DNA of 61,194 bases, from assembly GCA_010023045.1 (NCBI GenBank), contig RGJX01000003.1:1-61194 (forward strand). Reading direction: 5' to 3'. Both the position numbers and the translations under genes were made by a program. This document shows, piece by piece, positions 2,157 through 42,124 of the stretch. The notes beneath the pieces are model-generated. The model had not been told where the DNA came from. It searched no databases and saw only the letters and a list, made by a program, of their open reading frames with translations. The number at the start of each line of letters is the position of its first letter. The stretch's first letter is position 1. The stretch is from Actinomycetota bacterium (GTDB lineage: Bacteria; Actinomycetota; Actinomycetes; Nanopelagicales; Nanopelagicaceae).

Positions 2157-2819
2157 GTGATTTCTTGGATGAACTTTTTTCGTCCGCACAAAACGGTACC
2201 AAAAACACCTTGGACTGGATCACACCCGTGGGATCTCGCTCCGATTCGGGTATTAATACTCTCTTCGGGCCTTTTTATTTTTGGATTGGGAGATTCGCTG
2301 GTAATTCAATCTACGCTTGGAAACGCGCCTTGGTCGGTGCTTGCACAAGGCATTTCGGGACAACTAAATATTTCCATCGGTACAGCAACGCTTCTCGTTA
2401 GCGCAGTCGTACTCGCTATGTGGCTCCCTTTGAGAGAGCGGCCCGGTTTTGGCACGATTATGAATATATTGATCATCGCCGGGGCAATTGATGTTGGTAT
2501 CTGGCTCTTTCCCTCACCTCAAGCGTTTCCTGCACAACTTGCCTATGTCTTAATAGGTATAGCGATGGTTGGCGCTGGTTCTGCCTTTTACATAACTTGC
2601 GGCCTGGGACCTGGTCCGCGCGATGGTTGGATGACCGCATTACATAAAAGAACTGGGGTTAGGGTGGGACGCGTCCGCCTCGGTATTGAACTATCTGTGC
2701 TCACCCTGGGGTGGCTTCTCGGTGGCACCGTTGGACTCGGAACTGCCCTTTTCGCGCTTCTTATCGGTCATTCGGTAGCAATCTCTTTTGGTGTCGTTTC
2801 CCGTTTTACTGCCCGGTAG
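2157..2819 (+). CDS. YczE/YitT-like integral membrane protein
   Basis: Multiple TM segments with 'GLGPGPRDGWMTAL' and 'GGTVGLGTALFALLIG'. Confidence 0.75.
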   Translation: MISWMNFFRPHKTVPKTPWTGSHPWDLAPIRVLILSSGLFIFGLGDSLVIQSTLGNAPWSVLAQGISGQLNISIGTATLLVSAVVLAMWLPLRERPGFGTIMNILIIAGAIDVGIWLFPSPQAFPAQLAYVLIGIAMVGAGSAFYITCGLGPGPRDGWMTALHKRTGVRVGRVRLGIELSVLTLGWLLGGTVGLGTALFALLIGHSVAISFGVVSRFTAR

Positions 2820-36948: not shown

Positions 36949-38709
36949 CTACCCAAGTTCATCTTCCTTCTTCTTGACCTCGACTACCGCATCAACGCCA
37001 CTCTCACGACGTTGCGCCACGGTTATCGGAGTTGGAGCGCCGGTCAATGGGTCGCCACCACTTGCTGTCTTTGGAAACGCGATTACCTCACGAATCGATT
37101 CAGCTCCTGCCAGTAATGCGCAGAGTCGATCTAGACCTAAGGCGATTCCACCGTGTGGCGGTGGTCCATAGTTAAAAGCTTCGAGAAGAAATCCGAACTT
37201 GTTTTGGGCCTCTTCATCGCTTAAACCAATTACTTTAAATACCTCTTTTTGAATATCGCGTTTATGTATACGGATAGATCCTCCGCCTATCTCATTTCCA
37301 TTAAGAACGATGTCATACGCATAGGCCAGCGCGTTTTCTGGATCTGTGGCAAAGCTCGCTTCATACTCTGGTTTTGGACCAGTAAATGGATGATGAACTG
37401 CAGTCCAACCACCGCCATCTGTTCTTTCAAACATAGGCGCATCAACCACCCAGAGAAACTCCCAGCGATTCTTATCTATTAGATTGCATCGTTCGCCAAT
37501 TTCAAGACGAACCGCTCCTAAGAGCGCTAGCGATGCGTTACGTTCGCCAGCTGCAAAAAAGATTGCATCACCATTCTTTGCTCCAACTACTTGGGCGATG
37601 CCCGAACTCTCCTCCGGTGAAAGGTTCTTTGCTACCGGCCCAGTAAGGCTTCCATCTTCGCCCACCAAAATGTAAGCAAGTCCTTTAGCTCCGCGCGCTT
37701 TAGCCCAGTCCTGCCAAGCATCTAATTCGCGACGTGGTGAATTTGCGCCTCCTGGCATCACGACAGCTCCAACATAAGGCGCTTGAAACACCCTAAACGA
37801 GGTGTTTTTGAAGAAATTGGTTACATCGACCAACTCATTCTCAAATCGTAGATCAGGTTTATCGGAGCCGAACCTGCGCATTGCTTCGTGATATGTCATT
37901 CGTGCTATCGGAGAAGATACTTCGTAGCCAACAGTGGCTTTGAAAACTCTCTTTAAAATAGTTTCGGCAACCTTGATAACATCTTCTTGATCAACAAAAG
38001 ACATTTCAATATCAAGTTGAGTAAATTCTGGCTGACGATCGGCTCGAAAGTCTTCATCTCTAAAGCAGCGAGCAATTTGGTAGTAACGCTCCATGCCAGC
38101 AACCATTAAGAGTTGCTTAAAGAGCTGAGGTGATTGCGGTAGCGCGTACCAAGATCCGGGCTGCAGTCTTACTGGCACAAGGAAATCTCGCGCACCTTCT
38201 GGGGTAGAGCGAGTTAGATATGGTGTTTCAATCTCCAAGAAATCGAGCTCGTCCATTGCGCTGCGAATCTCACTTGTGACCTTTGATCGTAATCTCAGCG
38301 CCTTGGATTGCTCTTCCCGGCGCAGATCGAGATACCGGTATTTAAGGCGAATTTCTTCACTTACGTTTACCTTCTCGCCGGAGTCAACTGGGAATGGGAG
38401 TGCAGCAGCCTCACTTAAAACCTCAAGCTCATCGCAGATAACTTCAATCTCTCCGGTCGGAATATTTGGATTCTCATTGCCGACTGGTCGCTTTGCAATC
38501 TTTCCAATGGCGAGCACGCACCACTCAGCTCTTAAAGATCCGGCAACTTTCTCGTCAGAGATGACGACTTGGACGCTGCCACTTGAATCTCGTAGATCAA
38601 TAAAGGCGACTCCGCCATGATCTCGGCGGCGAGCTACCCAACCAGCGAGACGAACCGTTTCGCCGACTTGGGAAGAACGCAGCTCACCCGCAAGATGAGA
38701 ACGGAGCAT
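36949..38709 (-). CDS. aspS: Aspartyl-tRNA synthetase
   Basis: '[26 protein letters not shown]', '[20 protein letters not shown]', '[28 protein letters not shown]'. Confidence 0.98.
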
Positions 38710-38746: not shown

Positions 38747-39942
38747 TTAAATAGCGTTCTTCAGAGTCGCAACTAAGGAGTCAAGAGTAATGGATTCTTC
38801 AATTCCGTCGGACATACGTTTTAGCCTGCCCTGTCCGGATTGAAGTTCAGCGTCTCCTAGTACCAGAACATGTCGTGCGTTTAATTTGTCAGCAGCCTTC
38901 ATTGCGCCTTTCAAGGCGCGATCTCCAAATCCCATATCGGCGACGAAGCCAACTTCTCGGACTTTCTCTATGAGAGAAATGGCTCGTAATTTGGCCGCAT
39001 CCCCAATGGGAATTATGAAGAGATCCAAATATCCGTCACCAAGTCTGGAATTCTCATTCGAGTTATCTATCAAACCTTCACTTTCCAGCGCCAGAATGAT
39101 CCGATCAATTCCCAATCCAAATCCAATTCCTGAAAGGTCCTGTCCGCCTAAAGTCTTCATCAATCCGTCGTAGCGCCCACCCCCGCCAATGCTGGCTTGA
39201 GCGCCGAGACCTTTATGGACAAACTCAAAGGCCGTTCCCGTGTAATAGTCCAAGCCGCGAACCATTCTTGGATTCACAACGAAGGGTATGTCAAGTGCAG
39301 TAAGCGCACTCTTTAACGCCTCGAACTTACTCGCACTCTCTGAAGTTAGAAAATCCAAAATAATTGGGGCTACTTTCAGTTTGGCTTGGATTTCAGATCG
39401 CTTGTCATCGAAAATTCGCAGTGGGTTTTTCTTCACCCGCTCTGCAGTTTCATCATCCAAATCTAGATTTGAAAGAAATTTCAAGAACTCCACACGATGT
39501 TTACCTCTACTCTCCTCATCCCCAAGTGAGGTAATTTGCAGTTCAAAATTCTGAAGACCTAAGGAGGCAAATCCTCGATAGGCAATAGAAATCACTTCTG
39601 CATCAAGAAATGGATCATCTAGCCCAACTGCTTCGATTCCAAACTGATAGAACTGGCGATACCTCCCGGCTTGTGGACGTTCAGCTCTAAAAAATGGACC
39701 TCTGTAATAGAGCTTCACGGGCAGTTGTCCGCGGTCCAGACCGTGTTCAATAATCGATCGGATTACGCCTGCTGTTCCCTCGGGACGGAGAGTGAGAGAG
39801 CGACCACCACTGGGAGCTCAATTAAATGATAGTTCGCCGCTAGGGAAACTTGTTCAAGTTTTCGAACCACTTTCTCAAAAATTCCCGAGCGAGGTGGAAA
39901 ATATTCTGAGACGCCCTTAGGGGCTTGAAAATCTCCGCTCAT
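38747..39942 (-). pseudogene. hisS: Histidyl-tRNA synthetase, interrupted by an internal deletion/frameshift near 39806-39811
   Basis: N-part from ATG 39942 reads MSGDFQAPKGVSEYFPPRSGIFEKVVRKLEQVSLAANYHLIELP; a different frame continues GGRSLTLRPEGTAGVIRSIIEHGLDRGQLPVKLYYRGPFFRAERPQAGRYRQFYQ. The usual ~29 residues between 'ELP' and 'GGRSLTLRPEGT' are absent. Confidence 0.88.
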
Positions 39943-40676
39943 CCGAGACGTCCTTGGAGCGCAGCCTGAATATAAGGATTCGTCGCAAGCTCAATCTCCA
40001 CTCGAGTCCTCTCCCCGTGGCCTGGAAGTACTTCCAAATGGCCGGGCTGAACCGCAATTTTCTCACGGAGAGTACGCTCCATGTCGGAAATTGAGCCACG
40101 TGGCAGGTCGGTTCTTCCAATTGCTCCCTTAAAAAGGGTATCGCCCGTAATCAGAATCTCATCTTCAACTCTTGCGATTATCGAGCCAGGCGTGTGTCCC
40201 GGAGATGATTCAATTTCAAATCTCATTCCAGCGATGCTCAAAGAGTTGTGCTCGGTGAGCTCAGTTACATCTTCTGGATCTTCAAATGCATGAGCTCCAT
40301 ACTTGCCCACCAATTCATTCATTAGGGCAAGGCCCTGCGCCCCCATGCCGCGCTCTGGCTTTTCTAAAAGATCTCTATCAAGTTTATGGACCAGTACTCC
40401 TGCTCCACAATCTCTTTGCAGTGGTAAGAGCGAGAAGTGGTGATCTAAATGGCCGTGAGTGATAAGAATTGCGACAGGTTTCAGATTTGCAGATTGAAGT
40501 CTCTCTTTTATCTTTCCCACTAAATCTGGGATAGCAATGCCTGGATCGACAATCACGCACTCCGAGTTCTTGCTTGGCGCAACAATCCAACAATTGGTAC
40601 CAAAGAAATCTGCTACAACCCGATCCACCAAGACGCCCAAAATTCTCCCCTCACCCTTCCAAGCTAGCTCGAGCAA
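39939..40676 (-). CDS. MBL-fold metallo-hydrolase (glyoxalase II-like); start may be near 40631
   Basis: 'ILITHGHLDHHFSL', 'SSPGHTPGSIIARVEDEILITGDTLFKGAIGRTDLP', 'VLPGHGERT'. Confidence 0.9.
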   Translation of the reverse strand: MLELAWKGEGRILGVLVDRVVADFFGTNCWIVAPSKNSECVIVDPGIAIPDLVGKIKERLQSANLKPVAILITHGHLDHHFSLLPLQRDCGAGVLVHKLDRDLLEKPERGMGAQGLALMNELVGKYGAHAFEDPEDVTELTEHNSLSIAGMRFEIESSPGHTPGSIIARVEDEILITGDTLFKGAIGRTDLPRGSISDMERTLREKIAVQPGHLEVLPGHGERTRVEIELATNPYIQAALQGRLG

Positions 40677-40825
40677 CGGCTTCGAATTCTCCCTTTTTCT
40701 CTATGCCAGACGGGAAAACCGCGCCCACCTTTTACAGATTCTCCCCCCGGGGGTACCTTGAGCCCTCTAAACCGCTGAACCCGCAACGGCCCTGGCCGCG
40801 CAACGAGAAGTGAGGTAGTAAACCG

Positions 40826-42124
40826 ATGAGCGCACAAGATTTACCAATCAACTCCGCCGCCGCCGCTTTAATAGGCGATCCTGCAAAATACGGTCGCGTC
40901 GATGACGCTGGAATGGTTTACGTACAAACTCCTGACGGTGAGCGCGTTGTTGGTTCATACCCTGGTAAAACTCCAGAAGAAGCTCTCGCATATTTCGTCC
41001 GTAAATTTGAAGTTGTAGCTGCCGAAGTGGCGCTCCTTGCCGCTCGTATCGTTTCCGGAGCAATGGTTCCTGATAACGCTCTTCAAGCGGTCAACAAATT
41101 ACGAAATCAGGTTGAACATCTAAATGGCGTGGGAAATATCGCCGCTCTCAAATCTTCACTCGAGCAGATCCCTTCACTAATCGATGAACACCGCTCGGCT
41201 TACGAAGCAAAACGTCAGGCTGAGATGGAAGCGAAGGCTGCCAAACGCGCTGCGGCACTTGAGGGCAAAGAAAAGATTGTTATTGAAGCCGAATCACTTA
41301 AAGATTCTGAGCAATGGAAGGCCACAGGTGATCGACTAAAGGATCTCCTTGAGGAGTGGAAGAAGGCGCCTCGATTAGATAAAAAGTCAGATACCGAACT
41401 TTGGAAGCGCTTTTCGGCTGCGCGGAATCACTTTGACAAGAAGCGCCGCACCCACTTCGCCTCTCTATCAAAGAAGCAAAGTGAAGTTAAAAGCGCAAAG
41501 GAAAAAATTGTCCAGGAGGCTGAAGCGCTTGCCAATTCAACTGATTGGGTTGCAACGGCACGTCGTTATAAGGCCCTTATGGATCAATGGAAGGCGTCTG
41601 GGCGCGGTAAGAAGAATGAGGATGCCAAGCTCTGGGAGCGATTCAAGGCCGCGCAAGATACATTCTTTGCAGCAAAGAATTCAGATTTAGAGAAGCGTTC
41701 CGAGTCATTTGCGGAAAACTTGGTTAAAAAAGAGGCTCTGGTTAGTGAGATCGAGGCTCTATTACCTATCGCTAACCTAGATGATGCAAAACGCAAATTC
41801 CGCGATTTGAAATCCAAGTATGCAAAAGCTGGAATGGTCGACCGGAATAAGAAGGCTCAACTGGATCGCAAGATTGAGAATGTAGAACTGAGCTTAAAAG
41901 AGGCCGAACAAGAGCAATGGCGACGTACCGATCCAGGGGCAAAGTCCCGCGCTCTGGAAGTGGTAAACCAACTAATTGCTGCGGTTGCGGATTATGAGGC
42001 GAAGGCAGCGCGCGCTGATGCAGCCGGCGACTCACGAAAAGCTGCCGAACTACGCGAGGCCGCTTCGGCTAGATCAATCTGGCTAGCTGAGGCCCAACGC
42101 GGATTAGCTGAGTTCAGCTCCTAA
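40826..42124 (+). CDS. DUF349 domain-containing protein
   Basis: Repeated 'EALANSTDWVATARRYKALMDQWKASGRGKKNEDAKLWERFKAAQDTFFAAK' helical units. Confidence 0.9.
   Translation: MSAQDLPINSAAAALIGDPAKYGRVDDAGMVYVQTPDGERVVGSYPGKTPEEALAYFVRKFEVVAAEVALLAARIVSGAMVPDNALQAVNKLRNQVEHLNGVGNIAALKSSLEQIPSLIDEHRSAYEAKRQAEMEAKAAKRAAALEGKEKIVIEAESLKDSEQWKATGDRLKDLLEEWKKAPRLDKKSDTELWKRFSAARNHFDKKRRTHFASLSKKQSEVKSAKEKIVQEAEALANSTDWVATARRYKALMDQWKASGRGKKNEDAKLWERFKAAQDTFFAAKNSDLEKRSESFAENLVKKEALVSEIEALLPIANLDDAKRKFRDLKSKYAKAGMVDRNKKAQLDRKIENVELSLKEAEQEQWRRTDPGAKSRALEVVNQLIAAVADYEAKAARADAAGDSRKAAELREAASARSIWLAEAQRGLAEFSS

Follow-up and report, generated by a model that had tools for sequence, protein, structure and literature searches.

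A silent 85-bp block loss in the hisS gene of a draft Nanopelagicaceae genome, very probably an assembly artefact

The gene for histidyl-tRNA synthetase (HisRS), hisS, is split in the draft genome G000 by the absence of exactly 85 bp (28 codons and one base) that are present in its three closest relatives. On comparison with related sequences, this lesion is very probably an artefact of a low-quality draft assembly rather than a trait of the bacterium, whose own hisS is most likely intact and about 426 codons long. The window, that is the whole stretch of DNA analysed here (61,194 nucleotides), is a complete contig (C34) of this draft, which consists of 1.19 Mb in 121 contigs with a completeness of 85% and a contamination of 1%. 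The nearest relatives of the draft are Nanopelagicaceae metagenome-assembled genomes (MAGs), and the draft itself is most likely one as well. The features of the locus are as follows.

36949..38709, minus strand: aspS-like ORF (named from its translation), intact, downstream of hisS, in the same order as in relatives
38747..39808, minus strand: hisS 3' part, codons 73/74-426, in a shifted frame and otherwise intact, with motifs 2 and 3 kept
39763..39765, minus strand: TAA stop, met by the original frame when read through the junction
39808..39810, minus strand: junction, with 85 bp (codons 45/46-73) absent relative to G013, G016 and G019
39808..39942, minus strand: hisS 5' part, codons 1-44 and the first bases of codon 45 (MSGDFQ...HLIELPV)
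39939..40676, minus strand: MBL-fold hydrolase ORF, intact, upstream of hisS and overlapping it as ATGA

The reading frames bear out the first-pass annotation, which had placed the hisS start at ATG 39942, overlapping the stop of the MBL gene as ATGA and followed by a good HisRS N-terminus. From this ATG the frame encodes MSGDFQAPKGVSEYFPPRSGIFEKVVRKLEQVSLAANYHLIELPV, then noise (VVALSLSVPREQQA) as far as the TAA at 39765-39763. A second frame starting at 39808 encodes GGRSLTLRPEGTAGVIRSIIEHGLDRGQLPVKLYYRG..., and continues with the remainder of HisRS (GGRSLTLRPEGTAG...) as far as 38750; the listed ORF of 323 codons opens at the first start codon of this frame, GTG 39718. In profile searches the 5' part matched positions 1-41 of TIGR00442 and the 3' part positions 69-405, the latter alone scoring 358-361 bits, above the curated cut-off of 286.75 bits, and containing HisRS motif 2 (RGPFFRAERPQAGRYRQFYQ) and motif 3 (GFGLGIDR). 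The 5' part is 98-100% identical in amino acid sequence to the relatives. No continuous frame runs over the HisRS catalytic domain including the TDVVxKEMYTFxDR block in the window, whereas this frame is intact in the relatives. The comparison with close relatives that had been proposed at first pass found an intact 426-codon hisS in the same gene order in G013 (L050), G019 (L049) and G016 (L051), which are three species within the draft's genus. With both halves at the expected HisRS sites and three syntenic relatives intact, the split is far beyond chance, and the frames, profile matches and relatives together uphold the original description of a hisS gene broken by an internal deletion and frameshift.

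The shift in alignment diagonal that defines the missing block is present against all three relatives. The lost block reads FEDTxLFTRGVGESTDVVxKEMYTFEDR and corresponds approximately to residues 46-73 of E. coli HisRS (phmmer alignment to 1kmm), within the catalytic domain. Because 28 residues and one base are gone, neither frame nor a frameshift restores HisRS. Loss of a conserved block of the FEETxLFxRGVGxxTDVV type, with the frame running out at a TAA, had been predicted from the sequence and holds against the three relatives; the predicted size, about 29 codons or 86-89 bp, was slightly too large. The placement of the junction is ambiguous by 2-3 bases, and GTGGTGGTCG, suggested as a possible breakpoint motif, proved to be ordinary Gly-Gly-Arg coding sequence after a 2-base overlap. 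This is the sole block loss inside the window, where the remaining ORFs are intact.

Beyond the MBL gene, at window positions 40690-40830, about 110 bp separate this gene (40676, minus strand) from a divergent DUF349-like gene (40826, plus strand). This stretch is near-identical in G016, G019 and G013, more conserved than its coding flanks, and is hardly found among more distant members of the family. It gave no Rfam match and no folding signal, and is possibly a shared promoter region.

The hisS lesion is one of many in the draft. Approximately 735 kb of the 1.19-Mb draft were compared with approximately 760 kb of G016, of which about 408 kb aligned, and differences in length of 28 bp or more with good alignment on both sides were counted. 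The draft lacks at least 16 clean blocks of 56-275 bp each, while in the reverse direction G016 lacks no block longer than 27 bp. The same census shows one in-alignment gap of 44 bp in the draft; three length differences (C3:24780, 27071 and 27744) are not counted among the 16, as they lie in variable or repetitive sequence. Eleven of the 16 losses break the frames of genes that are whole in G016:

hisS: 85 bp lost
rpoC: 193 bp lost, including the start codon and the first 59 codons
rpsB: 73 bp lost
gatB: 86 bp lost
whiA: 178 bp lost
ilvH/ilvN: 275 bp lost, including the start
pepA: 80 bp lost
amino-acid ABC permease: 73 bp lost
potC-like permease (named by eye): 74 bp lost
glycosyltransferase (named by eye): 185 bp lost
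unnamed 172-aa protein: 82 bp lost

Nine of the loss sites (G000:C30 9118; C67 35475, 44172 and 48798; C56 32484; C1 11564; L286 (C36) 1379 and 8984; L285 (C33) 12806) lie in rpoC, rpsB, ilvH/ilvN, gatB, whiA, the ABC permease, pepA, the 172-aa protein and the glycosyltransferase. Three further losses are in frame (RlmD on C78, 102 bp; C14, 87 bp; an ABC exporter on C56, 159 bp) and could be natural, and another two come after tRNA genes, where there is no long conserved ORF. Polarity was examined in several genomes for hisS, rpoC and gatB only. The rpoC query is uninterrupted (401/401) in 15 other genomes of the genus and the draft alone lacks its first 186 bases; similarly, the gatB stretch is uninterrupted in 22 other genomes of the genus and split in the draft alone. 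In the draft, rpsB is single-copy and split. The relative G019 has a 28-bp loss of its own (L131, G019:C101 58352-58723, opposite window positions 2157-2819), which breaks a 220-aa gene that both the window and G016 have whole.

HisRS is indispensable, and as tRNA-His(GTG) is present in the draft (G000:C3), the enzyme is needed. The dN/dS of the hisS 3' part against the relatives is 0.06-0.08, equal to that of the intact relatives among themselves, which indicates that the codons downstream of the junction are under normal purifying selection. With the 3' part still evolving as a working gene does, the lesion must be either very recent or not real. A genuine 85-bp deletion that arose very recently in the cell or strain sampled (then part of a dying or dead lineage, or compensated elsewhere) would agree with this constraint, with the clean junction and its overlap of 2-3 bases, and with the absence of any other lesion from the window. 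Such a deletion is nevertheless very improbable, given that HisRS is indispensable with its tRNA present, that rpoC, rpsB and gatB carry comparable lesions in this assembly, and that a consensus contig would require a lethal deletion in most of the molecules sequenced. Dispensability of this hisS through an intact second HisRS elsewhere is, in our estimation, less probable again. The draft is 85% complete and such a copy could sit in the missing part, but the 1.19 Mb assembled contain neither another hisS nor the missing block, no relative in the genus has two matches above the hisS cut-off among the matches listed, and a second HisRS would leave the lesions in rpoC, rpsB and gatB unexplained.

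The high identity to HisRS that both fragments have kept might be taken to suggest a functional split or recoded enzyme, its fragments cooperating or being linked by ribosomal frameshifting. This we consider scarcely credible: the 28 conserved residues are missing in any frame, the first start available to the 3' fragment is GTG 39718, already inside the conserved catalytic domain, and there is no split relative. Equally slight is the chance that the lineage truly lost the block from its sole hisS and charges tRNA-His with a split or otherwise unknown enzyme. Among the three causes offered by the first-pass annotation, the evidence thus strongly favours an assembly or sequencing deletion over a second HisRS or a very recent lesion.

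The hisS lesion is absent from close relatives, and like lesions, all on the draft's side of the comparison, recur across the assembly and affect indispensable single-copy genes as well. As a cell with all of these lesions (rpoC, rpsB, gatB, hisS and others) could not live, their common cause is technical. The assembly procedure would have joined the flanks of short stretches, dropping the sequence between them (85 bp at hisS), at no fewer than 16 places in the compared part of the genome; the cause is probably a faulty join or low coverage at these sites, and the source reads would be expected to show an intact hisS. Counting against an artefact, no run of N marks the gap and hisS is the only such loss in the 61-kb window. 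No internal N runs marking gaps were found in any of the longer contigs read (at least 3 kb), and the joins at block losses are therefore silent. Of 45 draft contigs whose lengths were compared (C1-C40 and others), 29 have a length that is a multiple of 30 give or take one base, where 4.5 would be expected, compared with 4 of 61 contigs of G016; this is a strong artificial signature of assembly or post-processing. The block losses themselves are not quantised in this way, as the junction positions have no period of 30. Over the 16 events junction overlap was not above that of random breakpoints (1.75 vs 1.27, P 0.14), and the lost blocks had no distinctive GC content (0.48 vs 0.48) and folded no more strongly than random. 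Such random-like junctions fit unsequenced or dropped stretches that were joined unmarked, by a mechanism whose exact form we infer. A chimera with another lineage at the hisS junction was also considered and was not convincing: the 27 bases to the right of the junction are 56-67% identical to the relatives, 3-7% of all 27-base hisS windows are as low in identity, and outside matches reach 23/27 at best.

The hisS lesion therefore has no biological importance of its own and represents nothing novel. Its significance is that at least 11 genes of the draft, rpoC, rpsB, gatB and hisS among them, have short blocks missing without any sign, although the draft passes ordinary completeness and contamination figures. 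Without the reads, gene losses or pseudogenes reported from it are not trustworthy. A one-sided indel census is a cheap test for drafts with silent block losses of this kind.

Essential genes are documented to be absent from MAGs for other technical reasons (PMC9723686), and assembly errors are a known source of spurious pseudogenes (PMC11017572). The likeness to such cases is of a conserved gene broken in one assembly in which many others are broken too; the abstract of that paper describes frameshifts and internal stops, in contrast to the block losses of 56-275 bp in this draft. The window hisS resembles the HisRS family (TIGR00442; structures 1qe0 and 1kmm) over its whole length except the missing block, and shares with its relatives the gene site between the MBL gene and aspS. 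Unlike the family, in the draft assembly it has lost 28 residues of the catalytic domain and its frame is broken.
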